From Pigmentiphaga humi (GTDB lineage Bacteria > Pseudomonadota > Gammaproteobacteria > Burkholderiales > Burkholderiaceae_B), in contig NZ_UWPJ01000025.1 of assembly GCF_900606115.1 (NCBI RefSeq), forward strand, positions 1 through 64,000: a stretch of DNA of 64,000 bases. Direction: 5' to 3'. Below are positions 44,073 through 56,826 of this stretch, one piece after another. How positions within the stretch are numbered: position 1 is the stretch's first letter; the number at the start of each line of letters is the position of its first letter. A model generated the notes under the pieces. The model was not told the DNA's origin. It did not search any database and was given only the letters and a program-made list of their open reading frames with translations. The position numbers were made by a program, and so were the translations under genes.

Positions 44073-45305
44073 TCAGAGTTCGATGATGCGCTGGGGCGTC
44101 CGGTGGAAGCACCGGGGCGGCCCTTCCGGCTGGATGAGATAGTTTTCGCAGACGGTCGTGAACAGCGCGGGCGAACCGATGGCCGGGTGCGCGGCGATGT
44201 TCATTCCCGCTTCGATGCGCAATGTTTCGTCCTGCCGGATCAACGGACGCTCCACCAGATCGTAGCCCTGGCCGTGGCAATGCAGGCGGCGTTCTTCCGG
44301 CCAGCCCCGTGCGCGCATGAATGCGTTGTACGCGGCGAAGACTTCCGCGCACGACGCTCCCGGCTCGAGCATGGCCAGCGTGGCGCGCTGCGCCTCGCAC
44401 ACCGCCTCGAACGCATCGCTCAGCTCGTTCGTGGCCCGGCCCAGGACCAGCGGCCGGGCGATGTGCGCGAACATCCCGCCCGGCCCCGAATTTTCCACCA
44501 GCAAGGTGAACACGTCCCCCTCGCGCAGCTCCCTGCCCTGCTGGAAGCGCGGCCGCAGGCCCGCCGCCTGCCCGGGCGCCGCCGACGAACCGAAGAACAT
44601 GCCTTGTTCGCTGCCCAGCAGTTGTCCGACGTGCTGGGCATGGGCCATGACCTCGAAGTCGCGCATGCCGGGACGGATAGCCGCCGCGACTTCCACCACG
44701 ATACGATCCTGCATGTCGGCGGCGGCCTGGATGAGCGCGATCTCTTCCGGGCTCTTGATGGCCTTGATGGCGTCGACGGCGTCCGTCATGTCGATGCAGG
44801 CGCCCGCGCCCAATTGCTCGCGCAGGCCGGCCCCGAAAGCGTAATAGGAACTGGCCGCGGCCACGATGCCTATGCGCCGGTAGCCGTGCCGGCGGATCTC
44901 GCGCACCACGATCTGCGCATCGTAGTCGGCCGTGTAGACGACCGACGGATAGCTGGGCACCATGCAGCGGCGGCCCACCCCCGGATTGGCGGCGTCGTTG
45001 CCGTCGAACTCGAGCACGGCATCGAAGGGGCCTTGATCCACCAGCGTCATCAAACCTTCGGCGGGAAAAATAAGCGTGCGCGGGTTGTAATTGCCGGGCG
45101 GCTGTCCCGCCAGCCAGCGAAAATGGCCGCCTCCCGAGATGCCGTTGGCGCCCTGCACCACCAGAGCGTCGACGCCGGCGCCGGCCATGGCCCGCCGCAC
45201 GAGCAGCCAGCGCCGCTCCAGTTCGCCGCGCGACACGGGATGCAGCGTCCTGCCGTCCGCCGCCACGCTGATCGCGGGCCGATCAGCGATCGATAAGATG
45301 TTCAT
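44073..45305 (-). CDS. M24 (creatinase/Xaa-Pro peptidase-fold) protein with altered metal site
   Basis: A 410-residue pita-bread fold protein with an N-terminal creatinase domain and a C-terminal M24 domain. Canonical M24 peptidases use D, D, H, E, E. Here the first position is E271 (LLVENSGPGG), the second is replaced near H281, while H344, E365 and E387 are kept. It is therefore unlikely to be a standard dinuclear peptidase; a C-N hydrolase or lyase like other non-peptidase M24 enzymes is possible. It overlaps the amidohydrolase gene by 4 nt. Confidence 0.82.
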   Translation of the reverse strand: MNILSIADRPAISVAADGRTLHPVSRGELERRWLLVRRAMAGAGVDALVVQGANGISGGGHFRWLAGQPPGNYNPRTLIFPAEGLMTLVDQGPFDAVLEFDGNDAANPGVGRRCMVPSYPSVVYTADYDAQIVVREIRRHGYRRIGIVAAASSYYAFGAGLREQLGAGACIDMTDAVDAIKAIKSPEEIALIQAAADMQDRIVVEVAAAIRPGMRDFEVMAHAQHVGQLLGSEQGMFFGSSAAPGQAAGLRPRFQQGRELREGDVFTLLVENSGPGGMFAHIARPLVLGRATNELSDAFEAVCEAQRATLAMLEPGASCAEVFAAYNAFMRARGWPEERRLHCHGQGYDLVERPLIRQDETLRIEAGMNIAAHPAIGSPALFTTVCENYLIQPEGPPRCFHRTPQRIIEL

Positions 45306-46318
45306 CCGATTTCCCCGAGCTTGAGCAAACGCCGCGCGTTGCCTTCGAAAATGTCGTGCCGCTGTGCGGCGGTCAGCTCCAGTCCCTCCACGGCGGCGAT
45401 GGCCGAACGTATGTACCCTGCTCCCTGGTCGGGACCGAAGGGGGCATCGGTCGCAAACAGCATGTGGCCGGGGCCGAAGAAATCCAGACAGCATTCGACG
45501 GGCGGCTGGCCGATCGCTCCCACCGTATCGGCGTAGAACATCCGGAAATAGTCCACCGGTCGCCGCGTCATGGCCTGGCGCAGCGATCGGTAGTCCTCGT
45601 CGGTCGTGCGTGCGCCCAGCCGCTCCCAGACGTTGGTCACGCGGCCTTCCAGATAGGGGATGGTCCCGCCCATCTGGTGGGCGATCACCTTGAGGCCGGG
45701 ATGCCTGTCGAATAGTCCGGACAAGGCGATGTGCGCCATCGCCACGCTGGTCTCGTGCGGCCAGCCGATGGCGAACCAGATCTCGTAATGGCTCTTGGAC
45801 TCCGCGGTGTAATCGGCGTGCGAGGCTTCCCGGTCGGGATGCAGCCAGATGGGACGGTCGAGTTCGGCCATCAGCGCGAACAATCCCAGCGTCGCTGGCG
45901 CGGTCAACGGGCGGCCCTGCACGTGGGTATAGACCTGCACGCCCACTGCGCCGAGGTCGCGGATGGCGCGCTCGGCTTCCCGCAAGAGTCCCGCTTCGTC
46001 GTTCATCGGCAGCGCGGCGACGAAACCGGGAAAGCGGTCGGCATGGCGCGCAACGAGCTCGGCCATCTCGTCATTCGCGCAACGCGCCAGGTCGCAGGCC
46101 AGCGCAGGCCCGCCCATGCTTTCGATGGGCGGGCCCGACATGCAGACGATTTGCGCATAATCGTCGAACTGGTCCATCAGCCGGAACCGCCGGTCCATGT
46201 CATGGAGCGACGGCACGCCGTACAACAGACGCGCGCGCGCCCCGCCGTCGGGCAGCACCTGCTGCATGCGGTCGTAGAACCGCTGCGGATACACATGCGA
46301 AAACACATCGAGCCTCAT
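45302..46318 (-). CDS. Amidohydrolase 2 (ACMSD-like) family protein
   Basis: A 338-residue TIM-barrel protein of the 2-amino-3-carboxymuconate semialdehyde decarboxylase (ACMSD) family. H160 (WLHPD), H214 (IAHQMGG) and D291 (ATDAPFG) fit the metal and catalytic residues, but the N-terminal HxH is F6-S-H8, missing the first His. Family members decarboxylate or hydrolyse cyclic and muconate-like acids. The gene lies 10 bp after a Bug gene and overlaps the M24 gene. It could supply the ACMSD step lacking near nbaC, but its operon suggests another substrate. Confidence 0.82.
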   Translation of the reverse strand: MRLDVFSHVYPQRFYDRMQQVLPDGGARARLLYGVPSLHDMDRRFRLMDQFDDYAQIVCMSGPPIESMGGPALACDLARCANDEMAELVARHADRFPGFVAALPMNDEAGLLREAERAIRDLGAVGVQVYTHVQGRPLTAPATLGLFALMAELDRPIWLHPDREASHADYTAESKSHYEIWFAIGWPHETSVAMAHIALSGLFDRHPGLKVIAHQMGGTIPYLEGRVTNVWERLGARTTDEDYRSLRQAMTRRPVDYFRMFYADTVGAIGQPPVECCLDFFGPGHMLFATDAPFGPDQGAGYIRSAIAAVEGLELTAAQRHDIFEGNARRLLKLGEIG

Positions 46319-46327
46319 GGGAGCCGC

Positions 46328-47308
46328 TCACTCGACCTTGATGTTGGCCGACTTGATGACGCGGCCCCACTTGTCGATCTCGGCGGCGACGAAGGCTCGC
46401 AGCGCCTCGGGCGTACCGGGCGCCGGCTCCATGCCGCCCTGGATGACCGCCTGCCGGCCTTCGGGCGAATTCAGTATGCGGCCCACGTCTTGGCTCACCT
46501 TGCGCACGATGTCGGGCGGCGTGCCCGCGGGCGCGAACATGGCGACCCAGCCGCTCGCGACATAGTCCGGGTAGCCCGACTCGGCAACGGTAGGCACATC
46601 GGGCGCCGACGTCGGCCGCTTCGCATCGACGACCGCGAGTATGCGCAGACGGCGATCCTGGACCAGCGGCATCAAGGTCGTGAGATCCGATATGCCGAAG
46701 TTGACCTCGCCCGAGGCAATGGCCAGCGCCGCCGGCGCCGTGCCTTTGTACGCCACGGCGTTCATCTTCGCGCCGCTCATCGAGGCCAGCAGCTCGCCCG
46801 CCAGATGCGTCTGGCTGCCCGTGCCGGACACACTGTAGAGCAAGCCCTGCCTGCTGCCCTTGCCGAGGGCGACCAGGTCCGCCACGGTCTGCACCGGCAC
46901 CGAAGGATGGACGGCGATCGCCGTGGGAATGGTGGCGATCATGGTGACCGGCGCCAGATCCCTGGCCGCGTCGTAGGGCATCTTGCGGAAATGCTGGTTG
47001 ATCGCAATCGCCCCGGGTGAACTGAGCACGAAGGTATAGCCATCGGGCGCCGCCTTGGCCGCCATCTCCACGCCGATCGCCCCGGCGGCGCCCGGACGAC
47101 TCTCGACCACCACGGACTGCTTCCACTGCGGCGCCAGCTTGGCGCTGAGGAGCCGCGCCAACTGGTCCACGCTGCCCCCAGGCGGGAAGGGCGCGATCAG
47201 GCGCAGCGGGCGCTCCGGATAGCTCTGGGCCAAAGCAGCCATCGGGACGAGGGTCAGGCAGGCGGCGGCGGCCGCGGCGCGAACACAGAACGAACGACGA
47301 TGCGACAT
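46328..47308 (-). CDS. Bug/TctC-family periplasmic binding protein
   Basis: A 326-residue tripartite tricarboxylate-type receptor with a signal peptide ending AALAQ near residue 28. The mature protein starts YPERPLRLIAPFPPGGSVD, the canonical Bug motif, and has VVESRPGAAGAIG. ATG 47308 is preceded by CAAGGAACC. It lies 46 bp after the MarR gene on the same strand and probably captures the substrate of this operon. No TctA/TctB membrane genes are present. Confidence 0.93.
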   Translation of the reverse strand: MSHRRSFCVRAAAAAACLTLVPMAALAQSYPERPLRLIAPFPPGGSVDQLARLLSAKLAPQWKQSVVVESRPGAAGAIGVEMAAKAAPDGYTFVLSSPGAIAINQHFRKMPYDAARDLAPVTMIATIPTAIAVHPSVPVQTVADLVALGKGSRQGLLYSVSGTGSQTHLAGELLASMSGAKMNAVAYKGTAPAALAIASGEVNFGISDLTTLMPLVQDRRLRILAVVDAKRPTSAPDVPTVAESGYPDYVASGWVAMFAPAGTPPDIVRKVSQDVGRILNSPEGRQAVIQGGMEPAPGTPEALRAFVAAEIDKWGRVIKSANIKVE

Positions 47309-47354
47309 GGCGGTTCCTTGCAAGAGAGGAAACTGCGGAGCGATGCGCAAAAAG

Positions 47355-47825
47355 TCAGGCCAGGCCCACAATCTTGCGCATGATGGTGAAAAAGGCCTGG
47401 CGTTCTTCCGGGCCCAGATTGCCCAGGATTTCGTTCTGCGACGAAGCGATTTCTGGCTGTATGCGCTGCAACAGCGACTCGCCCGCGCCGGACAGCCGCA
47501 GTTCATGCGCCCGCCCGTCCACCGCCGAACGCACCCGCTCCACCAGCCCGCGTTCGACGAAACGCTTGACGATGCGGCCCACGGTCACCACGTCCACGGA
47601 GACCGAAGCCGCCAGGCTGGCCTGGTCCACGCCGGGATGGAAATGCAAGGCCGTGAGCAGGACCATCTGCGGCACCGTGAGGTCATAGGGCTGCAGCCGA
47701 CGATCCAGGCCCGCGACCGAAATCTGGTGCGCGCGGCGGATCAGGAAGCCCGGTTTGTCCACGAAACGGTCGACGTCGTTGCGGGCGGCAAGATTGGGAT
47801 GGGAGGCAGGTTCGGGAAGAGACAT
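47355..47825 (-). CDS. MarR family transcriptional regulator
   Basis: A 156-residue MarR protein, with the helix-turn-helix in LAASVSVDVVTVGRIVKRF and the wing SAVDGRAHELRLSGAG. It is the first gene of the five-gene minus-strand operon. Two identical 23-bp repeats with inverted arms lie just upstream (47852-47904), so autoregulation of the whole operon is strongly suggested. Confidence 0.9.
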   Translation of the reverse strand: MSLPEPASHPNLAARNDVDRFVDKPGFLIRRAHQISVAGLDRRLQPYDLTVPQMVLLTALHFHPGVDQASLAASVSVDVVTVGRIVKRFVERGLVERVRSAVDGRAHELRLSGAGESLLQRIQPEIASSQNEILGNLGPEERQAFFTIMRKIVGLA

Positions 47826-47851: not shown

Positions 47852-47904
47852 AGATAATACGCACGCTTATCAAAACAATCAAGATAATACGCACGCTTAT
47901 CAAA
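47852..47904. promoter_or_regulatory. Tandem operator pair upstream of MarR operon
   Basis: The 23-bp sequence starting AGATAATACGCACGCTTATC occurs at 47852-47874 and again at 47882-47904, with a 30-bp period, about three helical turns. Each copy contains GATAA-N9-TTATC. Two sites on the same DNA face would allow cooperative binding of MarR dimers. Confidence 0.78.
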
Positions 47905-47970
47905 TTGCCGAAAAAAAAGCGACGTGATGGCCATCCGGCATCGCCGCTCGTCGCATCGCCCAGGGCATTG

Positions 47971-48040: not shown

Positions 48041-48997
48041 TTAAAGATCCAGCACCAGCTTGCTGCCCTTGCAGCCCGAGACGCAGACCATCATGGTCTT
48101 GTTGGCCTCGCGCTCGCGCTCGGTCAGCACCGAGTCGCGGTGGTCGGGCGTGCCTTCCAGCACCGCCGTCTCGCACGCGCCGCACACCCCTTCGCGGCAG
48201 CTGTAGTCGGCATCCACCCCGGCCTCCAGCAGCGCATCCAGCAGCGACATGCCTGCCGGCACGTCGATGGTCTTGCCCGACTTGGCCAGTTCCACCTGAT
48301 AGCTGCCCTCTTGCGCCGCCTCGACTTCGCCCGCGGCGGCAAAGCGCTCGATGTGCACGTTCTCATAGCCCAGTTCCTTGCAGGTGGCCTCGAAGGCGTC
48401 CAGCATGGGCGTGGGACCGCAGCAGTAGAAGTGCGTGTCGGCGGGATGGCCGCCCAGCAGTTCGCGCAGGTTGGGCGGGCCGCCCGCCTCGGCGTCGAAG
48501 CGCGTCTTGACCTGCTCGCCGGAGGCCAGCAGCTCGTCGACGAAAGCGGCTTCCACCTTGGCCCGCGCACAGTAGAGCAGTTCCACCGGCTTGTCGATGC
48601 TGCGCAGGCGGTTGTACATGCAGAAGATGGGCGTTACGCCTATCCCGCCCGCCAGCAGCACCGATTTGGTCGCGCCCTCGTCCAGCTCGAAGTTGTTGCG
48701 CGGCGCGCCGATCTTGATGGTCGAACCCACACGCAGCTGCTCGTGCACATAGCGCGAGCCGCCCCGGCTGTTACGGTCGTTCAGTACGCCCACCACGTAG
48801 CGGTGGCGCTCGGCCGGCGAATTGAACAGCGAGTAGCTGCGCACCAGGCCGTTGGGCAGATGCAGGTCGATATGGGAGCCCGCCTCGAACGCAGGGAGAT
48901 CCGCGCCGTCGGGCGAACGGAATTCGACGCTGATGATGCCTTGCGCTTCAAGGCGGATGGCTTGAACCAGAACCGTAAGAAGAGAGCTGCTGTTCAT
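48041..48997 (-). CDS. Phthalate dioxygenase reductase-type (VanB-like) flavin/2Fe-2S oxidoreductase
   Basis: A 318-residue electron-transfer protein with three modules: flavin-binding RSYSLFNSP, NAD-binding GGIGVTPIFCM with CCGPTPML, and a C-terminal plant-type ferredoxin with CREGVCGAC and a distant Cys. It passes electrons from NADH to a Rieske oxygenase, encoded two genes upstream. It is the last gene of the IclR-led operon. The fit with a single-component VanA-type oxygenase is good. Confidence 0.94.
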   Translation of the reverse strand: MNSSSLLTVLVQAIRLEAQGIISVEFRSPDGADLPAFEAGSHIDLHLPNGLVRSYSLFNSPAERHRYVVGVLNDRNSRGGSRYVHEQLRVGSTIKIGAPRNNFELDEGATKSVLLAGGIGVTPIFCMYNRLRSIDKPVELLYCARAKVEAAFVDELLASGEQVKTRFDAEAGGPPNLRELLGGHPADTHFYCCGPTPMLDAFEATCKELGYENVHIERFAAAGEVEAAQEGSYQVELAKSGKTIDVPAGMSLLDALLEAGVDADYSCREGVCGACETAVLEGTPDHRDSVLTEREREANKTMMVCVSGCKGSKLVLDL

Positions 48998-49021
48998 TGA
49001 AAAAAGGTCGAAAAAAGGCGG

Positions 49022-49438
49022 TTATGCGTCGTTACGCAAGGCGACGTCGAGGCGCGCGAAAGCATCGATTTCCACCGTCAGGCCGGGGAAAACCAGGGCA
49101 CGGACTTCGACCAACGTGGAGCACGGATACGGCGGCTGGAAGAACGCCTTGCGGGCGCGCCCGACCTCGTCCTTGTCCCGGATATCCGTCACGTAGATCA
49201 CCAGTTTATAAATATTTTGCACCCCACCGCCAGCCGCTTCGACCAAAGCGCGGATTTTGCCCAGCACAATCAGGGTTTGTTCGTATGTGCCCAGCGGGAC
49301 ATCGGCCTTGGATTCCGGATTGGCCGTCATGCCCGACATGGCGATCTCGTCGCCCAGGACGAGGCAATTCGACCACGTCGCGGTCTCCCTTTCGGGGACC
49401 GACGGCGCGGTCACGCGGCGCGCCAGCGCCATCGTCAT
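49022..49438 (-). CDS. RidA/YjgF family protein (enamine/imine deaminase-like)
   Basis: A 138-residue RidA-fold protein. The block VEVRALVFPGLTVEIDAFA contains the conserved Arg and the (V/I)E(I/V)(D/E)A motif that bind the carboxylate of enamine substrates. The start ATG 49438 overlaps the Rieske oxygenase stop by 4 nt. Relatives hydrolyse 2-aminoacrylate-like enamines or act as 2-aminomuconate deaminase. Its presence between oxygenase and reductase genes suggests that a nitrogen-containing intermediate arises in this pathway. Confidence 0.85.
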   Translation of the reverse strand: MTMALARRVTAPSVPERETATWSNCLVLGDEIAMSGMTANPESKADVPLGTYEQTLIVLGKIRALVEAAGGGVQNIYKLVIYVTDIRDKDEVGRARKAFFQPPYPCSTLVEVRALVFPGLTVEIDAFARLDVALRNDA

Positions 49439-50457
49439 GCGGCCTTGCCCTGCAGCGTGTCGAGCTGCTGGGCGGCCAGGTTGCGCAGGTGGCGGCGCAG
49501 GCGCACCAGACCCACATCGTGCTGGTACAGGTTCTCGCGCTGATTGGCGTCGGGCTCCATCACTTCCAGCACTTCGCGGTCCTGCTCCAGCACGGTCCAG
49601 TGGCGCGCTTCCAGCCGGTTGCGGTAGAGGAATTGCCACGCATGCCGCTGCCAGCCCGAGACCCTGCGGCAGCGCCAGTGGAATACCGCGGCCAGGTTCT
49701 CGGTGATCGGCGTGTAAGTGCCGACGATGGCGAAGCTGCCGCCGGGACCGCCGGTGGCCGGGTACGGGATCTCCAGGCGCAGCCAGTGCAGGCCGGTATC
49801 CGCCCACTCGGTCCAGTCGAAGTTCACGCCGCGCTGGCCCTTCTTCTCGAAGATGAAGCCGTGCTCGGTATTGCGCACGCCGAACTCGGCCTCGGACGAG
49901 CCCTCGGCCATCGAGTGCGACTGCTTGTGCAGGTAGGTGCCGTGCATCGGATCCATCACGTTGTCGATCACGTAGCGATAGTCCGAACGCCATTCCGTGT
50001 AGCACAGGAACGCGCCGTATTCGTCGGAGACCAGCTCTTCCGGCAGCGTGAAATCGGGCGCCTCGTCGACGTTCTCGGCCGAGTTGTAGAGGAACACCGC
50101 GTCGTTGCGCTCGACCACGTGGAACGACCGCGCGGCGCGCTTGCCCTCCAGGCTACAGCCGGGGCTGCCGGGAACGTTGGTCACCACGCCGTCGCTGCGC
50201 ACCTGCACGCCGTGATAGCCGCAGGCGATGCGGTCGCCCAGCAGAATGCCCTTGGACAGCGGCGCGCCGCGGTGCGGGCAGTGGTCTTCCAGCGCGTAGA
50301 TCTTGCCGGCCTCGTCGCGCCACAGCACCAGCTTCATGCCCAGGCGGCGCATCGAAACGGGCTTGTCCGCAACAAAGCTGGACGGACAGATGGCGTACCA
50401 GGTGTCCTTCAGGCCGACTTGCAGCAGATCGTCCGGGCTCTCGATTTTCTTGCTCAT
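49435..50457 (-). CDS. Rieske 2Fe-2S ring-hydroxylating/O-demethylating oxygenase (VanA-like)
   Basis: A 340-residue oxygenase. The Rieske centre is CPHRG with CGYHG (about residues 59-84), and the mononuclear iron site is NVMDPMHGTYLH (about 162-176). The size and single-subunit form match the VanA/phthalate oxygenase group, which hydroxylate or demethylate aromatic acids. Electrons would come from the reductase two genes downstream. A small helical protein is encoded 17 bp upstream. The aromatic substrate is unknown. Confidence 0.92.
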   Translation of the reverse strand: MSKKIESPDDLLQVGLKDTWYAICPSSFVADKPVSMRRLGMKLVLWRDEAGKIYALEDHCPHRGAPLSKGILLGDRIACGYHGVQVRSDGVVTNVPGSPGCSLEGKRAARSFHVVERNDAVFLYNSAENVDEAPDFTLPEELVSDEYGAFLCYTEWRSDYRYVIDNVMDPMHGTYLHKQSHSMAEGSSEAEFGVRNTEHGFIFEKKGQRGVNFDWTEWADTGLHWLRLEIPYPATGGPGGSFAIVGTYTPITENLAAVFHWRCRRVSGWQRHAWQFLYRNRLEARHWTVLEQDREVLEVMEPDANQRENLYQHDVGLVRLRRHLRNLAAQQLDTLQGKAA

Positions 50458-50474
50458 GACAGACTCCTAGAACG

Positions 50475-50696
50475 TTACGCAGCCAAGCGGGCCAGTTCGG
50501 CCTGGAGCAGCACTTCCGTCCAGGCCTGGCCATTGGGAGCCGGCGGACCGGCGCGGTTCAGGTACTCCACGATGGGAGCCAGCTCGTGCATGCCGGTGGC
50601 GAATGCGCGCTCCAGCGAATCGCCCAGCAGGCTTTCCCATTCCGTGGGAGGGCGGCGCCGCGCCTGATGCGGCTCGAGATAGCGGTCTTGCATCAT
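50475..50696 (-). CDS. Small protein of unknown function (73 aa)
   Basis: A 73-residue hydrophilic protein, predicted mostly helical, with no Cys cluster, signal peptide or membrane segment. It overlaps the preceding small gene by 4 nt and lies 17 bp before the Rieske gene, so it is part of the operon. I do not recognise its family with confidence. The conserved-looking middle is LLGDSLERAFATGMHELAPI. A role as an accessory or stabilising factor for the oxygenase is only a guess from position. Confidence 0.7.
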   Translation of the reverse strand: MMQDRYLEPHQARRRPPTEWESLLGDSLERAFATGMHELAPIVEYLNRAGPPAPNGQAWTEVLLQAELARLAA

Positions 50697-51016
50697 TTAC
50701 CTCCATTGCGTACGCGTTCGCGGATCCGTTCGCGAACGGGAACAAAGTCATAAGTGGGATAGCACTCCGTACGGAACACGCCCCACGCGGAACGCTCCAG
50801 CTCCACGTTCACCGCCGCCAGCAGGTGCGGCGGCACCTCCAGCGTCACGATCTGCCCCAGGCCCATCGCCACGGTCCAGGACGCCACCCTCACCCCTTCC
50901 GGTGGAAAACGCTCCCACCAGTCGGCTTCCTTCAGCTTGGTCTGGACCGCGTCCAGATTGTTGGACTGATCGTGCTTGAGCAGCACAGTGAGCAAAATAT
51001 TCGCGGTTTCAGCCAT
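50693..51016 (-). CDS. Small protein of unknown function (107 aa)
   Basis: A 107-residue protein with alternating beta/alpha pattern: ILLTVLLKHD, then a Trp-rich ADWWERFPPEG, VASWTVAMGLGQIVTLEVP and a basic C-terminus RERIRERVRNGGK. It may have a dimeric alpha-beta barrel-like fold, but I cannot confirm this. It lies 31 bp after the VOC dioxygenase and overlaps the 73-residue gene. Small proteins of this size are also found in some other Rieske-type catabolic clusters. Confidence 0.75.
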   Translation of the reverse strand: MAETANILLTVLLKHDQSNNLDAVQTKLKEADWWERFPPEGVRVASWTVAMGLGQIVTLEVPPHLLAAVNVELERSAWGVFRTECYPTYDFVPVRERIRERVRNGGK

Positions 51017-51047
51017 CTACCTTCTCCAACTCCGCCCTAGCCGGCGA

Positions 51048-52016
51048 TCACTTCTTATCCGTCAGGAACTGGCCGTCCGGGGCCTTCGCGCTCTTCTGGC
51101 GGCGGGTATTGCCGTCCAGGCCGCCGTCGATCGCCCATTCGGCGAATATCGTGGGGCCGGGCTCGAACTCGCGGGCTTCCCACTCGGCGTCGAGGAAATC
51201 CTCGTCGGCGTAGTACTCGATCAGGCCGCCGCCGGGAAAGTTGAAGTACCAGAAGTAAGCCGACGAAATCGGATGGCGGCCCGGTCCGATCTGCGTGCTC
51301 CAGCCGTCGCGCGCCATGGCCATGCCGCCGCCGAACACCTCATGGATGTCGCGCACGGTGAAGGCCACGTGGTTCAGGCCGGCGCGCGGCTCGGGCGGCT
51401 GCAGCAAGAACAGGTCGTGGTGGCCGCCTTCGGCCGCGCAGCGCATGAAGGCGCCCCGGTTGGGATAGCGGTCGGAAGCGACGAAACCGAAGTTGTCGGC
51501 GTAGAAAGCCTCGCAAGCCTTGACGTCCTTGACGAAGAACACCACGTGGCCCACCTCGATGGGCGTGGCGCGGTCGTAGATCGGACTGCGCTGGTTGCGG
51601 CGCGACTTGGTGCCCCAGGTATTCATGCCCGGGCTGTCCAGGTCGAGCTCGATCTTGCGGGTCTTCTGGAAGCGCACGGCCAGGCCATTCGGATCCATGC
51701 AGCCCACGCGGCCGCCCTCGTTCACATAGCCCGGCTGCCCCTTGAGCTTCTCGGCGAAACGCGCGATCACCTCGTCGCCGGAACAGCCCCACACCACCTC
51801 GCGCAGCGTCGGCCCGTCCTCGATGGCGGGCGGCAGCCCGGGGAAATCGGTCGTCTTCACGATCACCCGGCACTTGTTCATGCTCTCGTAGACCAGCGAC
51901 TTGTCGGTTTCCTCGACCAGGTTCAGGCCCCAGTCGTTCAGGAATTTCTTGCAAGCAGCCAGGTCGTCCGCGCCGTAGGTGATTTCGTCTATGCCCAATA
52001 CGTCCATCATCATCAC
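51048..52016 (-). CDS. VOC family extradiol dioxygenase-like protein
   Basis: A 322-residue two-domain vicinal oxygen chelate protein. Probable iron ligands are His in EVGHVVFFV, His in GLNHVAFTV and Glu in LIEYYADED, the normal set for 2,3-dihydroxybiphenyl- or catechol-type dioxygenases. A C-terminal extension after residue 270 ends in a Lys-rich tail. It is encoded 16 bp after the aldehyde dehydrogenase gene. It probably cleaves the ring after the Rieske oxygenase acts; the substrate is unknown. Confidence 0.87.
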   Translation of the reverse strand: MMMMDVLGIDEITYGADDLAACKKFLNDWGLNLVEETDKSLVYESMNKCRVIVKTTDFPGLPPAIEDGPTLREVVWGCSGDEVIARFAEKLKGQPGYVNEGGRVGCMDPNGLAVRFQKTRKIELDLDSPGMNTWGTKSRRNQRSPIYDRATPIEVGHVVFFVKDVKACEAFYADNFGFVASDRYPNRGAFMRCAAEGGHHDLFLLQPPEPRAGLNHVAFTVRDIHEVFGGGMAMARDGWSTQIGPGRHPISSAYFWYFNFPGGGLIEYYADEDFLDAEWEAREFEPGPTIFAEWAIDGGLDGNTRRQKSAKAPDGQFLTDKK

Positions 52017-52032
52017 TCCTAGAGGCGGAGCC

Positions 52033-53511
52033 TCAATTTGCCCAGGACAAGGGGGATTCGTTCATGCCCCAGTACATGCCCTTTTGCTCCATGTATTGCA
52101 GGATGCCGAGGCGGCCTTTCTCGCGGCCGATGCCGCTGTCGCGCCAGCCGCCGAACGGCGTCGAAATCGAGAACAGCTTGTAGGTGTTGATCCACACCGT
52201 GCCGGCCTGCACCGCGCGGCCGACGCGCCAGGCGCGCTTGTAGTCGCGCGTCCAGATGCCGGCGGCCAGCGCGTACACGCTGTCGTTGGCTTGCTCGATC
52301 AGCGCTTCCTCGCTGTCGAAGGGCATCGCGACCAGCACCGGCCCGAAGATTTCTTCCTGGCTGATGCGGGCCTGGTTGCTCAGGCCCTCGATGATGGTCG
52401 GGCGATAAAAATAGCCCTTGTCGTAGAGACCGCCCTCGGGACGCTGGCCGCCGGTGCGGATGCGTCCGCCTTCGGAGACGCCCAGTTCGACGTAGCGCTC
52501 GATCGACTCGCGGTGCTTGCCGGTGATCAGCGGCCCCATCTGGGTGCGCTCGTCGGACGGGTCGCCCACGCGCAGCGCCGCGGCGCGCTCGGTCAGGCGG
52601 TCGATGAACTGCTCATAGACGGACGAGGCCACGAACAGCCGCGAGCCGGCGATGCAGGCTTCGCCCGAAGAACTGAAGATGCCGTACAGCACGCCGTTGA
52701 CGGCATGGTCCAGGTCGGCATCCTCGAACACCATGGTGGGCGACTTGCCGCCCAGTTCCAGCGAGACAGGCATCATCTTGTCGGCCGCGATGTGGGCGAT
52801 GTGCCGGCCGGTGGCGGTGCCGCCGGTGAAGGACACGCGCTTGACCAGCGGGTGCTTGGTGATGGCGTCGCCGATCACCGACCCCCTGCCGGGCAGCACA
52901 CTGACGATGCCCTTGGGGACGCCGGCCTCTTCGCAGATGGCGGCCAGCTCCAGCGCCATCAGCGGCGTGATCTCGGCGGGCTTGACCACGACGGCGTTGC
53001 CGGCGGCCAGCGCCGGGGCCATCTTCTGCGCCTCGCTGGCGATGGGCGAGTTCCACGGCGTGATGGCGGCGACCACGCCCATGGGCTCGTAGACGCTCAT
53101 CGTGATGTAGTCGCCGCGCGGCGGGGTGATGATTTCTTCCAGCGTTTCGCAGGCGGCCGCGAAGTATTGGAAGGTGCCGGCGGCGCTGGCGACCAGCACG
53201 CGCGTCTCGGAAATCGGCTTGCCGTTGTCCAGGCGCTGGCGCTGGGCCAGTTCCTCGGCCCGCTCGCGAATCAGCTGCGCGATACGATAGAGCACGGCGG
53301 CGCGCTCGTGCGGCTTGCGCTGCGCCCAGCCGCTGGTGCGGAAGGCGTGATGAGCGCCCTGGATGGCCTCTTCGACGTCATCCAGGCTGGCCGCGTTCAG
53401 GTAGGCCACGGCCTCCCCGGTGGCCGGGTAGATGGTGGCGTAGCGGTCGCCGCCGCCTTCGCGCCAGACGCCGGCGATGCAGATGGGAAGCGTCTTGTCG
53501 GAGATCAGCAT
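52033..53511 (-). CDS. NAD(P)-dependent aldehyde dehydrogenase
   Basis: A 492-residue aldehyde dehydrogenase. The cofactor block TPWNSPIASEAQK, the catalytic Glu in LELGGKS and the catalytic Cys in SSGEACIAGSR are intact. It belongs to the betaine/vanillin/aromatic aldehyde group rather than the muconic semialdehyde branch found elsewhere in the window. It is separated from the ThDP-enzyme gene by only 3 bp, so it probably oxidises the aldehyde made by that decarboxylase. Confidence 0.92.
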   Translation of the reverse strand: MLISDKTLPICIAGVWREGGGDRYATIYPATGEAVAYLNAASLDDVEEAIQGAHHAFRTSGWAQRKPHERAAVLYRIAQLIRERAEELAQRQRLDNGKPISETRVLVASAAGTFQYFAAACETLEEIITPPRGDYITMSVYEPMGVVAAITPWNSPIASEAQKMAPALAAGNAVVVKPAEITPLMALELAAICEEAGVPKGIVSVLPGRGSVIGDAITKHPLVKRVSFTGGTATGRHIAHIAADKMMPVSLELGGKSPTMVFEDADLDHAVNGVLYGIFSSSGEACIAGSRLFVASSVYEQFIDRLTERAAALRVGDPSDERTQMGPLITGKHRESIERYVELGVSEGGRIRTGGQRPEGGLYDKGYFYRPTIIEGLSNQARISQEEIFGPVLVAMPFDSEEALIEQANDSVYALAAGIWTRDYKRAWRVGRAVQAGTVWINTYKLFSISTPFGGWRDSGIGREKGRLGILQYMEQKGMYWGMNESPLSWAN

Positions 53512-53514
53512 GGC

Positions 53515-55194
53515 TCAGGCTTCCTTCTTGTCGGCCGTGTTCTTGAGCGGCGGGCCGGCGAACTTGGTGTTGAAACCGCCGATCGACAGCATGTCGAGTT
53601 CGACGATGAACGGCCCTTCCACGACCAAGCCTTCTTTGATCGCGCCTTCGAGCTGGTCCAGGCTGGCGACCTTGGCGTGGCCCAGGCCCATGGACCGGGT
53701 CAGCAGCGCGTAGTCCGGCGTGTGCAGCTGCACGTAGTGCTTGCGGCCGCCGTAGACGGCGTCCTGGATGTTCTTGATGACGCCGTAGGACTGGTCGTTC
53801 ATCAGGATGATCAGCATGTCGGCCTTTTCCTGGACGGCGGTGGCCAGCTCGCCCAGGTTCAGGATGAAGCCGCCGTCGCCGGCCAGCGTGAAGGTCTTCT
53901 TGCCCGATCCGGTGGCGGCCGCGCCGATCGCGGCGCCCACGCCCATGGCCAGGCCCAGGCCGATGCCGCCGCCCAGCGCGTGCACGCCGGCCTTGGAATC
54001 GTGCAGGCACGGCAGGCGGTTGCCCCAGATGCTGTTGGACAGCGTCACGTCGCGCACCCAGTTGAAGGACTCGCCCACCACCGATTGCAGCGTGTCGATC
54101 AGCCTGTCGTAGGGGCCGACGTCATCGCGCAGCCTGGCCATGGCGGCCCGCTTGGCGGCCTGGAGGTCGTCGATGAACGCGGGGTCGACCGCCATCCTGC
54201 CTTCGAGCCGGTCGGCCAGCCCTTCGAGCGCCAGCGTGGCGTCGCCGTTGACGAAGAAATCGGTGGAATAGGCGCGGCCGTCGGCCTGCGCGTCGGCATC
54301 GATGCGGTAGCGCGTGGCGGGCAGCTTGACGGCGTATTTCAGCGTCTCGTTGCTGCGCAGGCGCGAGCCGACCACGACCAGGGCGTCCACGGTCTGGTAC
54401 AGGTTCTCGACGGGCTTGGCGACGGTGAACGAGCCCAGGCAGGCCGGATCGTTCTCGGGAATCACGCCGCGCCCTTGCGTGCTGGTGATGACGCCGAAGC
54501 CCAGCTTGACCAGGCGGCGCACCTGCTCGCCGGCCTGGCGCGCGCCGCCGCCCAGCCACAGCAACGGCCGCTTCGCGCCGGCCAGGCGGCTGGCCAGTTC
54601 GTCCAGCGCGGCTTCGGCCGGCGCCAGCGGCACGACGGGCAGCGGAGTCAGGTCGGCGGGCGCGTCGATCAGCGCAGCCTGTACGTCGATGGGGATCTCG
54701 ATGCTGACCGGACCGGTGGGCGCGGTCATGGCGATCTGCACGGCGCGCTTGACGATGCCCATGGCGGTCTCGGGCGTGCGGATGCGGAAGGCGGCCTTGG
54801 AGACGGCCTTGAGCATGTCCAGCTGGTTGTTGGCCTCGTGGATGAAGCCCAGGTTCTGGTCCAGGTAGGGGCTGTCGATCTGGCCGGTCAGGTGCAGCAG
54901 CGGCGTGCCGGCGGTAATGGCTTCGACCATCGAGCCCGCGGCGTTGCCGGCGGCGGTGCCGGTGCTGGTCACGGTCACGCCCAGGCCGCCGGTGGTGCGC
55001 GCATAGGCGTCGGCCATGTTGGTGGCGCCGGCCTCGCCGCGCGCCATCACGAAGCGGATGTTGCCGCGTTCGCCGAAGGCGTCCAGGATGGGCATGTTGT
55101 GGATCGAGATGACCCCGAACGCCGCCTTGACGCCGCAGTTCTCCAGGAACTGCGCAATGGCTGCGCCGACGGTGATGCGGTTGGCATTAGGCAT
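53515..55194 (-). CDS. Thiamine diphosphate-dependent enzyme (2-oxoacid decarboxylase/acetolactate synthase-like)
   Basis: A 559-residue ThDP enzyme with all three domains. The cofactor-activating Glu is E54 in ARGEAGATNMA, and the pyrophosphate/Mg motif is GDGGFILNLGELATA followed by MND. It resembles benzoylformate decarboxylase and acetolactate synthase large subunits; no small subunit is nearby. Directly upstream of an aldehyde dehydrogenase gene, decarboxylation of an aryl or muconate-derived 2-oxoacid is the likely role. Its start overlaps the SDR stop by 8 nt. Confidence 0.88.
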   Translation of the reverse strand: MPNANRITVGAAIAQFLENCGVKAAFGVISIHNMPILDAFGERGNIRFVMARGEAGATNMADAYARTTGGLGVTVTSTGTAAGNAAGSMVEAITAGTPLLHLTGQIDSPYLDQNLGFIHEANNQLDMLKAVSKAAFRIRTPETAMGIVKRAVQIAMTAPTGPVSIEIPIDVQAALIDAPADLTPLPVVPLAPAEAALDELASRLAGAKRPLLWLGGGARQAGEQVRRLVKLGFGVITSTQGRGVIPENDPACLGSFTVAKPVENLYQTVDALVVVGSRLRSNETLKYAVKLPATRYRIDADAQADGRAYSTDFFVNGDATLALEGLADRLEGRMAVDPAFIDDLQAAKRAAMARLRDDVGPYDRLIDTLQSVVGESFNWVRDVTLSNSIWGNRLPCLHDSKAGVHALGGGIGLGLAMGVGAAIGAAATGSGKKTFTLAGDGGFILNLGELATAVQEKADMLIILMNDQSYGVIKNIQDAVYGGRKHYVQLHTPDYALLTRSMGLGHAKVASLDQLEGAIKEGLVVEGPFIVELDMLSIGGFNTKFAGPPLKNTADKKEA

Positions 55195-55984
55195 GACGGC
55201 AAACCCCTCCGGAAATATCGATATGGCTGCCCGTCGTGTAGGAAGACAAGGGCGAAGCAAGGAAGAAAATGGCGCGGGCGGGCTCTTCGGGACGGCCCAG
55301 GCGGCCCAGCGGAATCTGTTTCTCGGCGGCGATGCGGGCCGTCCACTGCTCCCATGAGAGCGAGCGGTCTTTGCGCTCTTCGTAGCGGCGGCGCCACTGG
55401 CCCGATTCGACCAGGCCCAGCAGGATGCCGTTGACCCGGATCTTCTTCGCGCTCAGCTCGTAGGCGAGCGAGCGCACCAGGTTGTGGATGCCGGCGCGCG
55501 CGGCGGAAGTCGCCACCATGTGCGGCTCGGGCTGGATCGCCAGCAGCGAATTCACGCAGACGATGGCGGCGTCTTCATTCTGCTCCAACTGCGGAATGAA
55601 GGCACGGGTCGGGTTGATGACCGAGAAGAACTTCAGTTGGACCTCGTCCAGCCAGGCCGAGTTCTCGGTGCTGGCGAAGGTGGACACCCTGCCCTGGCCG
55701 GCGTTGTTCACCAGGATCGCCGCTTTGCCCAGTTCGCGCTCCACCTCGGCGGCGAAGGCCTGCACCTGCTCGGGCGCGAGCACGTCGCAGCGCGAGGCCA
55801 GGATGCGTGCATCGGGAAAACGGGCGAGCAGGCCGTTCTTGGCCTGCTCGAGCTTTTCCTCGCTGCGGCCGCAGAACGCAACCGCAGCGCCGGCCTCCAG
55901 CAACATTCCCACGGTGGCCAGGCCGATGCCCGAGGTTCCCCCGGTGACGACGGCGACTTTTCCGGCAAGGTCATACATGCTCAT
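55187..55984 (-). CDS. SDR family oxidoreductase, variant active site
   Basis: A 265-residue short-chain dehydrogenase with the cofactor motif TGGTSGIGLAT and VNNAGQG. The usual catalytic Tyr-x-x-x-Lys is not obvious: the expected region reads VNSLLAIQPEPHMVATSAARAG, where Tyr and Lys appear to be replaced (HMVATSAARA). The C-terminal ISGG is normal. It may bind cofactor but catalyse differently or not at all. It overlaps the IclR stop by 1 nt and the ThDP gene by 8 nt. Confidence 0.85.
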   Translation of the reverse strand: MSMYDLAGKVAVVTGGTSGIGLATVGMLLEAGAAVAFCGRSEEKLEQAKNGLLARFPDARILASRCDVLAPEQVQAFAAEVERELGKAAILVNNAGQGRVSTFASTENSAWLDEVQLKFFSVINPTRAFIPQLEQNEDAAIVCVNSLLAIQPEPHMVATSAARAGIHNLVRSLAYELSAKKIRVNGILLGLVESGQWRRRYEERKDRSLSWEQWTARIAAEKQIPLGRLGRPEEPARAIFFLASPLSSYTTGSHIDISGGVCRHA

Positions 55985-56826
55985 CAGGCAACCATTCCGT
56001 TCAGTTTTCTATCGGATCCGTAGGCGGCATCCTGCCCACGGTAATTGAGTAAAGAAGAAAGTTCCGCCGCGCTCTCGCACACGGCGCGCGCCAATTGCTG
56101 CAGGCGCGCGGGCTCGATGGGAACGGCCGGCATGGCCACGCCCAAGGCGGCCGCGATCGCGCCGCCCTGCTCGCGCACCGGCGCGGCCAGCGTCGAAATG
56201 CCGGAATCGAAGAATCCCTCGTGCAGCAGATAGGGCCGCCGGCGATCCTGCAGCAGCAGTGCGTGCAGCTCCTGGACGTTGCGCGGCGTGAAGGAATTGA
56301 CGACGGCCAACTTGCCGTCCGGATAAAGCCCGGCCAGCTGTTCCAGCGTCATGTCGGCCATCAGCACGCGGCCCAGCACGGTGGCGTGGGCAGGCAGGCG
56401 GGTGCCGACGTTGACCGAACTGGCCATGAGCGTCGTGGCGGCCGCCTTGGCCACGTAGACGATGTCGGTCTCGTCGCGCACGACCAGATGGCAGGAAAGA
56501 TTGAATTCGTCGCGGACGCGCGCGAGCAGCGGCGCGCCCAGCTGGGTGAGCTCCAGCGAAGCCAGGTATTCGAAGCCCAGGCGCAGCACGGCCATGCCCA
56601 GCGCGTAGCCGCGGCCGTTATCGGCGCGCTCCACGAACCCGAGCTGCTCGAGGGTGTTGAGCAGGCGGAATACGGTGGTGCGGGGGACGCCCAGGCGGCG
56701 CGCCAGGTCGGGCGCGCCGACCATGCCGGCGCCGCGGCCGACTTCGCAAAGCACGCGCAGGCCCCGCTCCAGGCCCGGGACCCTATATTTTTCAGCAGAG
56801 AATTCCGACGTCGGCAACTGGCTCAC
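55984..56826 (-). CDS. IclR family transcriptional regulator
   Basis: A 280-residue regulator with an N-terminal helix-turn-helix (APDLARRLGVPRTTVFRLLNTL) and a C-terminal effector domain of the IclR type (VNVGTRLPAHATVLGRVLMA). It is the first gene of a ten-gene minus-strand operon and overlaps the next gene by 1 nt (TGATGA). It therefore probably controls its own operon in response to a pathway compound. Inverted repeats lie upstream at 56849-56894. Confidence 0.93.
   Translation of the reverse strand: MSQLPTSEFSAEKYRVPGLERGLRVLCEVGRGAGMVGAPDLARRLGVPRTTVFRLLNTLEQLGFVERADNGRGYALGMAVLRLGFEYLASLELTQLGAPLLARVRDEFNLSCHLVVRDETDIVYVAKAAATTLMASSVNVGTRLPAHATVLGRVLMADMTLEQLAGLYPDGKLAVVNSFTPRNVQELHALLLQDRRRPYLLHEGFFDSGISTLAAPVREQGGAIAAALGVAMPAVPIEPARLQQLARAVCESAAELSSLLNYRGQDAAYGSDRKLNGMVA

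Follow-up and report, generated by a model that had tools for sequence, protein, structure and literature searches.

The window analyzed here is a stretch of 64,000 nucleotides of the Pigmentiphaga humi genome (positions 1 to 64,000 of contig NZ_UWPJ01000025.1), and the subject of this study is a run of ten minus-strand genes that spans positions 48041-56826 within it. These genes form a real, conserved, and functionally unnamed catabolic operon, which is the Pigmentiphaga form of a module that is also present in other Burkholderiales, some Alphaproteobacteria, Klebsiella, and Acinetobacter. Judging by gene content and genomic context, we consider it probable (about 0.6) that the operon belongs to a module by which kynurenate (4-hydroxyquinoline-2-carboxylate), a product of tryptophan, is catabolized. 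Four observations lead to this reading: the set of enzymes encoded, the conservation of their active sites, the conservation of the module across lineages, and an association of the module with an aminotransferase gene that lies beside the gene for tryptophan 2,3-dioxygenase (TDO). The main rival of kynurenate is a close quinoline analogue, which is weighed below together with two further classes of substrate.

Operon structure and active sites

The window lies on a contig of a 5.1-Mb genome (contig C44 of genome G000 in our collection). A preliminary description of this DNA had listed ten consecutive minus-strand genes with overlaps or gaps of at most 31 base pairs (bp) and had assigned them to the IclR, short-chain dehydrogenase/reductase (SDR), thiamine diphosphate (ThDP) enzyme, aldehyde dehydrogenase (ALDH), VOC, Rieske, RidA, and VanB families, with two small proteins left as unknown. 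All ten genes were located, with spacings of −8 to +31 bp (in order, −1, −8, 3, 16, 31, −4, 17, −4, and 24 bp), and each of the named families was matched by Pfam or NCBIfam profiles. The first small protein is indeed without a family match, and the second turned out to be a member of PF20552. The genes are as follows:

55984..56826, minus strand: IclR-family regulator, first gene of the operon (PF01614/PF09339; TIGR02431, PcaR/PobR-like, 161 bits, under the cut-off of 285)
55187..55984, minus strand: SDR1, short-chain oxidoreductase in which TSAAR replaces YxxxK (PRK07062, 445 bits, cut-off 266)
53515..55194, minus strand: ThDP-dependent enzyme, proposed 2-oxoacid decarboxylase (PRK07064, 860 bits, cut-off 495)
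52033..53511, minus strand: ALDH, proposed to oxidize the decarboxylation product (PF00171, 569 bits)
51048..52016, minus strand: VOC type I extradiol dioxygenase, proposed 7,8-dihydroxykynurenate 8,8a-dioxygenase (PF00903)
50693..51016, minus strand: small protein 1, 107 amino acids, no family match in Pfam or NCBIfam
50475..50696, minus strand: small protein 2, 73 amino acids, HTH_62 (PF20552, 105.6 bits), directly upstream of the Rieske alpha gene
49435..50457, minus strand: VanA-type Rieske non-heme iron oxygenase, proposed kynurenate 7,8-dioxygenase (PF00355, PF19112)
49022..49438, minus strand: RidA-superfamily protein without the canonical Arg (PF01042)
48041..48997, minus strand: VanB-type reductase with an NAD-binding domain and a C-terminal Fer2 domain, proposed electron supply of the Rieske oxygenase (PF00111, PF00175, PF22290)

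The −8 spacing between SDR1 and the ThDP gene rests on a ThDP gene start at 55194 (MPNANR). The RidA gene is read in the frame 49022-49438 (138 amino acids), which replaces a mechanical open reading frame (ORF) of 327 amino acids, and small protein 2 in the frame 50475-50696, which replaces a 94-amino-acid ORF at 50467-50751.

Active sites were surveyed in homologues with at least 35% identity over at least 60% of the query, and residues were called conserved when kept in at least 97%. The VOC protein has an intact 2-His-1-Glu triad (H157, H216, and E267), which is conserved together with H200, H248, and Y257 (53 loci); these positions correspond to those that catechol 2,3-dioxygenase uses as ligands and for acid-base catalysis. 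In the Rieske oxygenase, C60, H62, C79, and H82 and also D169, H172, H177, and D293 are conserved (29 loci), presumably as ligands of the Rieske cluster and of the iron. Conservation extends to E56 (query numbering) of the ThDP enzyme (44 loci) and to E252 and C286 of ALDH (38 loci). Two earlier proposals are supported, that of a single catabolic operon with a ring oxygenase and extradiol cleavage and, by enzyme class, that of a 2-oxoacid decarboxylation by the ThDP enzyme followed by aldehyde oxidation.

SDR1 lacks the canonical YxxxK motif and has T, S, and R of TSAAR instead in 40 of 40 loci (TSAAR in 36, TSSAR in 4). Its closest PDB entry is 3lf1 (Q9HYA2; E 2e-120), which has the same motif; Q9HYA2 is presumably PA3507 of Pseudomonas aeruginosa, and its atypical catalytic center is reportedly the topic of a paper. 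By contrast, all 34 loci surveyed for SDR2, a second short-chain dehydrogenase of the module, retain the Tyr, Ser, and Lys of the canonical YxxSK motif.

Conservation of the module across lineages

The nearest named relatives of the VOC protein belong to Pigmentiphaga strains and close kin (88-89% identity). At E ≤ 1e-60 the protein was matched in 18 of the 151 genomes of the family and in 20 of 399 genomes of the order, and an alignment model of it matched 10 of 398 genomes of the phylum at E ≤ 1e-70. Six of the 20 order-level matches, all from one genus and at ~44% identity, are probably paralogs; the four that were fetched (L084-L087) have no other module gene. Among three new matches at the phylum level, G697 carries the whole cluster (L154) and G558 does not (L155), G798 being outside the comparison. 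Gene neighborhoods were then compared across 48 VOC loci, in which two Pigmentiphaga genomes are counted twice, once per collection. A ThDP homologue (at least 35% identity) is present in the fetched stretch of 39 of the 48, and the nine loci without one consist of three that are short or at a contig end (L030, L047, L078) and six in which the VOC protein is only 41-44% identical (L082-L087).

Since all ten further loci fetched from Pigmentiphaga and its close kin, among which are the two genomes counted twice, have an identical ten-gene order, the operon is more than a chance arrangement. Most other Burkholderiales loci have a core of IclR-SDR1-ThDP-aspartate dehydrogenase-ALDH-VOC, which is joined there to SDR2, a cupin, an alpha/beta hydrolase, and a NitT/TauT-type ATP-binding cassette (ABC) or major facilitator superfamily (MFS) transporter, and these loci often also hold a Rieske gene preceded by an HTH_62 gene. 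In six loci, mostly from alphaproteobacterial metagenome-assembled genomes (L027-L032), IclR, cupin, VOC, and SDR2 share a strand, and the opposite strand has most of hydrolase, SDR1, and ThDP. Annotated records from Klebsiella pneumoniae, from Acinetobacter baumannii, and for two plasmids of Caballeronia combine ferredoxin, HTH_62, Rieske, SDR2, VOC, ferredoxin reductase, cupin, hydrolase, SDR1, aspartate dehydrogenase, ALDH, and ThDP in one cluster, whose annotated genes bear generic names (the HTH_62 gene of A. baumannii is annotated as hypothetical); one Klebsiella aerogenes record names the VOC gene metapyrocatechase 2. The comparison of gene order across Burkholderiales that the preliminary description had called for returned a conserved module, with the ten-gene order as its Pigmentiphaga form.

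In the Klebsiella, Acinetobacter, and two Caballeronia records, the gene immediately after Rieske alpha is SDR2, an adjacency that fits the expectation for a dihydrodiol dehydrogenase; this is not the case in the partial cluster of Caballeronia plasmid pNK84. This adjacency bears on a second class of substrate, a methoxylated or hydroxylated lignin-type aromatic acid on which the VanA/VanB pair would act as an O-demethylase and the VOC enzyme would cleave a catechol. Such a substrate would suit the VanA_C domain of the oxygenase (Pfam match of 47 bits), its VanB-type reductase, and its closest PDB sequence, dicamba O-demethylase (E 7e-19); no VanA equivalog was among the four NCBIfam matches up to 1e-3. 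It would give no role to the aspartate dehydrogenase, to the adjacency of the SDR2 and Rieske genes, or to the association of the module with the TDO-aminotransferase pair, and we regard it as improbable.

RidA, small proteins, and flanking frames

The RidA gene had been taken in the preliminary description as a hint of an enamine intermediate. Its product scores 39.5 bits against TIGR00004 (cut-off 106) and is closest in PDB to 2ig8, the 'PA3499' protein of P. aeruginosa (E 8.8e-41). Ser107 aligns with an Arg in three other RidA-family proteins of PDB, and PA3499 likewise has Ser; the aligned residue is presumably Arg105 of Escherichia coli RidA, the mark of imine-deaminating members. Because the residue that carries the enamine argument is Ser here, that argument fails, and we rejected the protein as an imine deaminase. 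A role as the Pigmentiphaga substitute for aspartate dehydrogenase is weakened by the aspartate dehydrogenase gene in the same genome.

A 2-aminomuconate-type route for an aminoaromatic acid, in which RidA would deaminate an enamine after ring cleavage, is accordingly the least likely of the alternatives and in our estimate very improbable. The presence of a RidA-superfamily gene within the operon and of an Amidohydro_2 gene downstream (45302-46318) would suit it; set against these are the Ser, the restriction of RidA homologues to Pigmentiphaga and close kin (loci collected, E ≤ 1e-3), and, for the amidohydrolase, its position in a stretch 534 bp off and its lack of a homologue in the 48 VOC loci. 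Nothing else was found in favor of this route, whose dioxygenases were not searched for.

Of the 27 other loci in which both an HTH_62 and a Rieske alpha gene were detected, 26 have the two side by side (the exception is L080). The almost invariable position of HTH_62 directly before the Rieske gene suggests that the PF20552 protein serves the oxygenase as an accessory and is not a DNA binder of the recombinase-like kind. Small protein 1 is present in ten other loci of Pigmentiphaga and close kin and occupies the slot that the Rieske ferredoxin has in some other lineages; its AlphaFold2 model is poor (pLDDT 58.8), too low for a structure search. Outside Pigmentiphaga, a remnant-like short frame that shares 58% identity with the C-terminal portion of small protein 1 precedes HTH_62 and Rieske genes (L043 4265-4501).

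Downstream of the operon and on the same strand are TctC binding-protein and Amidohydro_2 genes (45302-47506). The TctC, amidohydrolase, and M24 genes of this region (44073-47506) were rejected as operon members on account of the 534-bp gap and, for the latter two, the lack of homologues in the 48 VOC loci. A promoter scan returned two promoter-like sites, both at 47854-47911, and none at the operon start. Antisense to the operon there is a 1151-amino-acid open frame (51979-55434, plus strand), most likely a by-product of high G+C.

Module genes elsewhere in the Pigmentiphaga genome

On the same contig, beyond the end of the window and 9-14 kb upstream of the operon, a second locus (C44:66149-70476; L113 2150-6477) holds the ATPase, binding protein, and permease of an ABC transporter together with SDR2 and IclR, with 59-79% identity to the canonical cluster; SDR2 itself is at C44:67014-67787. 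Cupin (84% identity), alpha/beta hydrolase (45%), IclR (56%), and aspartate dehydrogenase (61%) are found together on contig C22, and the order cupin-hydrolase-IclR is kept in five module-positive Pigmentiphaga genomes.

At E ≤ 1e-60, the cupin was found in 17 of the 18 module-positive and 6 of the 133 module-negative family genomes (Fisher p 1.4e-16, without kinship correction). The module-positive genome that lacks it is a draft of 440 contigs (G124), and the module-negative matches are only 55-59% identical in five cases and 81% identical in the sixth (G134). We do not count this family-wide co-occurrence as proof of unlinked co-inheritance; the cupin is mostly inside the cluster outside Pigmentiphaga, and the figure mainly restates linkage. 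For this reason only the contrast within Pigmentiphaga bears on unlinked inheritance: there, the cupin is outside the operon in all five module-positive genomes and is absent from the one module-negative genome (G135).

The C22 genes stand in a catabolic island (L111 7403-19418) that also includes an FAD monooxygenase, an amidase, and, by eye only, genes that resemble the nicotinate-catabolism genes nicX, nicF, and nicE; neither Pfam nor NCBIfam gave a match for the nicX-like ORF. Two further PRK07064 ThDP paralogs scored over the cut-off (C42:30409-32040 and C37:282598-284226). Neither was accepted as a second copy of the module, since its neighborhood showed no homologue of the VOC gene or of the module Rieske gene; the C37 paralog is part of an SDR1 (50%)-ThDP-ALDH trio, and the C42 paralog is near sulfatase-like and Rieske genes (by eye).

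Association with tryptophan and kynurenine genes

The genome carrying the window has a kynB-TDO-aromatic aminotransferase gene group (TIGR03035, 323 bits; TIGR03036, 433 bits; PRK09257, 541 bits; all above cut-off) and no kynureninase above cut-off (best E 4.9e-4). Across the family, TDO (TIGR03036) is present in 59 of 151 genomes and kynureninase (TIGR01814, above cut-off) in 57 of 151, and the five genomes with TDO and no kynureninase are four module-positive Pigmentiphaga (G000, G043, G096, G116) and one module-negative draft that is 89% complete (G079).

An aminotransferase gene lies beside TDO in seven of the eight TDO-bearing module-positive family genomes vs none of the 51 module-negative ones (Fisher p 2.3e-8). 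The count of 0/51 is based on 30 loci with 1.5-kb flanks plus G135 and on 20 loci with about 3-kb flanks, the second TDO copy of G009 being left out. The seven are five Pigmentiphaga genomes (G000, G043, G073, G096, G116) and two of another genus (G035, G091), and the exception, G076, has kynB and kynU beside TDO. In the module-negative Pigmentiphaga genome G135, kynU takes the place of the aminotransferase beside TDO, and G073 has kynU elsewhere in addition to its aminotransferase pair. A further set comprised 32 module- or VOC-bearing genome handles, of which ten are family genomes included in the counts above; TDO is present in nine of the 32 and absent from 23. Overall, the aminotransferase-TDO pair occurs in 8 of 68 TDO-bearing genomes, and all eight are among the 17 with the module. 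This link to a tryptophan-kynurenine aminotransferase operon, together with the aspartate dehydrogenase of the module, supports the earlier suggestion that the substrate is a nitrogen-containing aromatic compound.

A close quinoline analogue would be handled by the same chemistry. Xanthurenate, quinaldate, or another 4-hydroxyquinoline-2-carboxylate would then be the substrate, with kynurenate a side or downstream compound. Caballeronia NK8, which has the full module cluster on plasmid pNK83, also has a partial module (ferredoxin, HTH_62, Rieske, ThDP, VOC) on pNK84 beside a molybdenum hydroxylase of the xanthine dehydrogenase family and a frame-broken relative of the aminotransferase (52-60%). 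We take molybdenum hydroxylases to be the enzyme type for quinaldate hydroxylation, so that such a gene would be expected if quinaldate were first hydroxylated, and the TDO-linked aminotransferase would presumably also yield xanthurenate from 3-hydroxykynurenine. The hydroxylase, however, was seen in the pNK84 record only and was not among the gene groups queried across the 48 VOC loci, and we consider an analogue unlikely, if less so than the lignin-type acids. In the same pNK84 stretch (L102 6395-17162), the frame-broken aromatic aminotransferase is absent from the annotation table; its proximity to the partial module counts in favor of kynurenate itself. In the genome carrying the window, a second VanA-type Rieske gene and a TctC gene come after kynB-TDO-aminotransferase (L156, C27, 12152-14321); no such Rieske gene was found in eight other TDO loci checked.

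Several points weigh against kynurenate as the substrate. TDO as such does not co-occur with the module (8 of 18 module-positive vs 51 of 133 module-negative family genomes). The aminotransferase-TDO link comes from two genera of the family and one genome of the order, its p value is without kinship correction, and it may reflect few events. Among the nine TDO-bearing genomes of the further set, six have kynU beside TDO and one (G280) has the aminotransferase pair, beside one of its two TDO genes, while two have neither within 1.5 kb. ALDH was not seen in the fetched stretch of the six loci L027-L032, neither RidA nor small protein 1 fits into the kynurenate scheme, and VanA-type Rieske enzymes are often O-demethylases. 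Finally, P. aeruginosa CHA without kynU accumulates kynurenic acid to 100 uM (PMC4938989), which is unlike a kynurenate-degrading strain; the gene content of CHA was outside our comparison.

Proposed pathway

The known kynurenate route starts with 7,8-dihydroxylation, after which the dihydrodiol is dehydrogenated and the ring undergoes 8,8a-extradiol cleavage. The propenyl side chain is then reduced, the 2-oxoacid loses its carboxyl group, and the resulting aldehyde is oxidized to 5-(2-carboxyethyl)-4,6-dihydroxypicolinate, which is degraded to amino and dicarboxylic acids. Enzyme classes for the dihydroxylation, dihydrodiol dehydrogenation, extradiol cleavage, decarboxylation, and aldehyde oxidation are all present in the genome carrying the window, as are the genes of a tryptophan-to-kynurenate source, which are not universal in other module-bearing genomes. 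In the scheme that we propose, both for the individual reactions and for their order, kynurenate in Pigmentiphaga would arise from tryptophan via TDO, KynB, and the TDO-linked aminotransferase. The VanA/VanB-type Rieske system would dihydroxylate its benzene ring at C7-C8, SDR2, from outside the window, would rearomatize the diol, and the VOC dioxygenase would cleave the ring beside the ring junction to give a dihydroxypicolinate that carries a 2-oxoacid side chain. SDR1 may reduce the C=C bond in the side chain of this product, the ThDP enzyme would decarboxylate the 2-oxoacid to an aldehyde, and ALDH would convert the aldehyde to 5-(2-carboxyethyl)-4,6-dihydroxypicolinate. The cupin and the alpha/beta hydrolase, encoded at the other locus, would open and then split the pyridine ring; opening of a lactam and cleavage at C4-C5 would give iminoaspartate and glutarate. 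Iminoaspartate is a substrate of aspartate dehydrogenase, which would thereby take up the C4-N fragment.

We give even odds to a broader proposal, namely that the module supplies the genes of the kynurenate pathway that have long been missing, with an SDR lacking Tyr and Lys as side-chain double-bond reductase; that a route of TDO, KynB, aminotransferase, and module replaces kynureninase in most module-bearing Pigmentiphaga; and that the module also exists in K. pneumoniae, A. baumannii, and, presumably, given its gene order, P. aeruginosa. Three enzymes of the pathway are, to our knowledge, orphans without genes. If the proposal is true, it would supply genes for these three, make the whole pathway testable at the gene level, account for a set of genes that bear generic names in many Burkholderiales and in some Gammaproteobacteria, and provide a genomic marker of kynurenate-removing microbes. 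It would also place the module in organisms exposed to kynurenate made by a host (K. pneumoniae, A. baumannii, and presumably P. aeruginosa); kynurenate is neuroactive and immune-active in animals.

Comparison with known systems

The closest known system is the kynurenate (quinoline) pathway of Pseudomonas tryptophan catabolism, established by biochemistry in the 1960s (EC 1.14.99.2, 1.3.1.18, 1.13.11.10). Dihydroxylation, dihydrodiol dehydrogenation, extradiol cleavage, side-chain reduction, 2-oxoacid decarboxylation, aldehyde oxidation, and pyridine breakdown, with nitrogen passing to amino acids, each find a fitting enzyme class in the module. We know of no genes for this pathway, and in the open literature, among the matches listed (mostly titles and the start of abstracts, with subscription journals mostly outside), there was no gene assignment for kynurenate degradation and no function for the cluster. 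The preliminary description had held that no described pathway combines these families; this is probably wrong for the chemistry, given the kynurenate route, and holds for the genes among the matches listed.

P. aeruginosa provides the closest solved structures of both RidA (PA3499) and SDR1 (Q9HYA2), and its PA3504-PA3514 stretch presumably includes ALDH, aspartate dehydrogenase, a ThDP enzyme, SDR, IclR, hydrolase, cupin, SDR, and ABC genes. In passages of papers that name these loci, PA3505 is treated as a gene of nicotinate metabolism or as a pyrimidine gene that is needed in some host-like media, the function of PA3510 is given as unknown, and no pathway is stated (PMC9948736, PMC1884159, PMC9732424, PMC7035377). 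The lumichrome (lum) branch of riboflavin catabolism, as described in a commentary on it, resembles the module in joining ThDP decarboxylation, a Rieske oxygenase, and an extradiol dioxygenase on an N-heterocycle, and differs from it by a P450 start, two joint ThDP proteins, pyrimidine-ring hydrolases, pyrone hydrolysis, and a link to actinobacteria (PMC12752717). The vanillate and dicamba demethylases share with the operon the VanA/VanB two-component architecture of oxygenase and reductase, but the context of SDR2, VOC, ThDP, and aspartate dehydrogenase in which this architecture occurs here points to dihydroxylation rather than demethylation.

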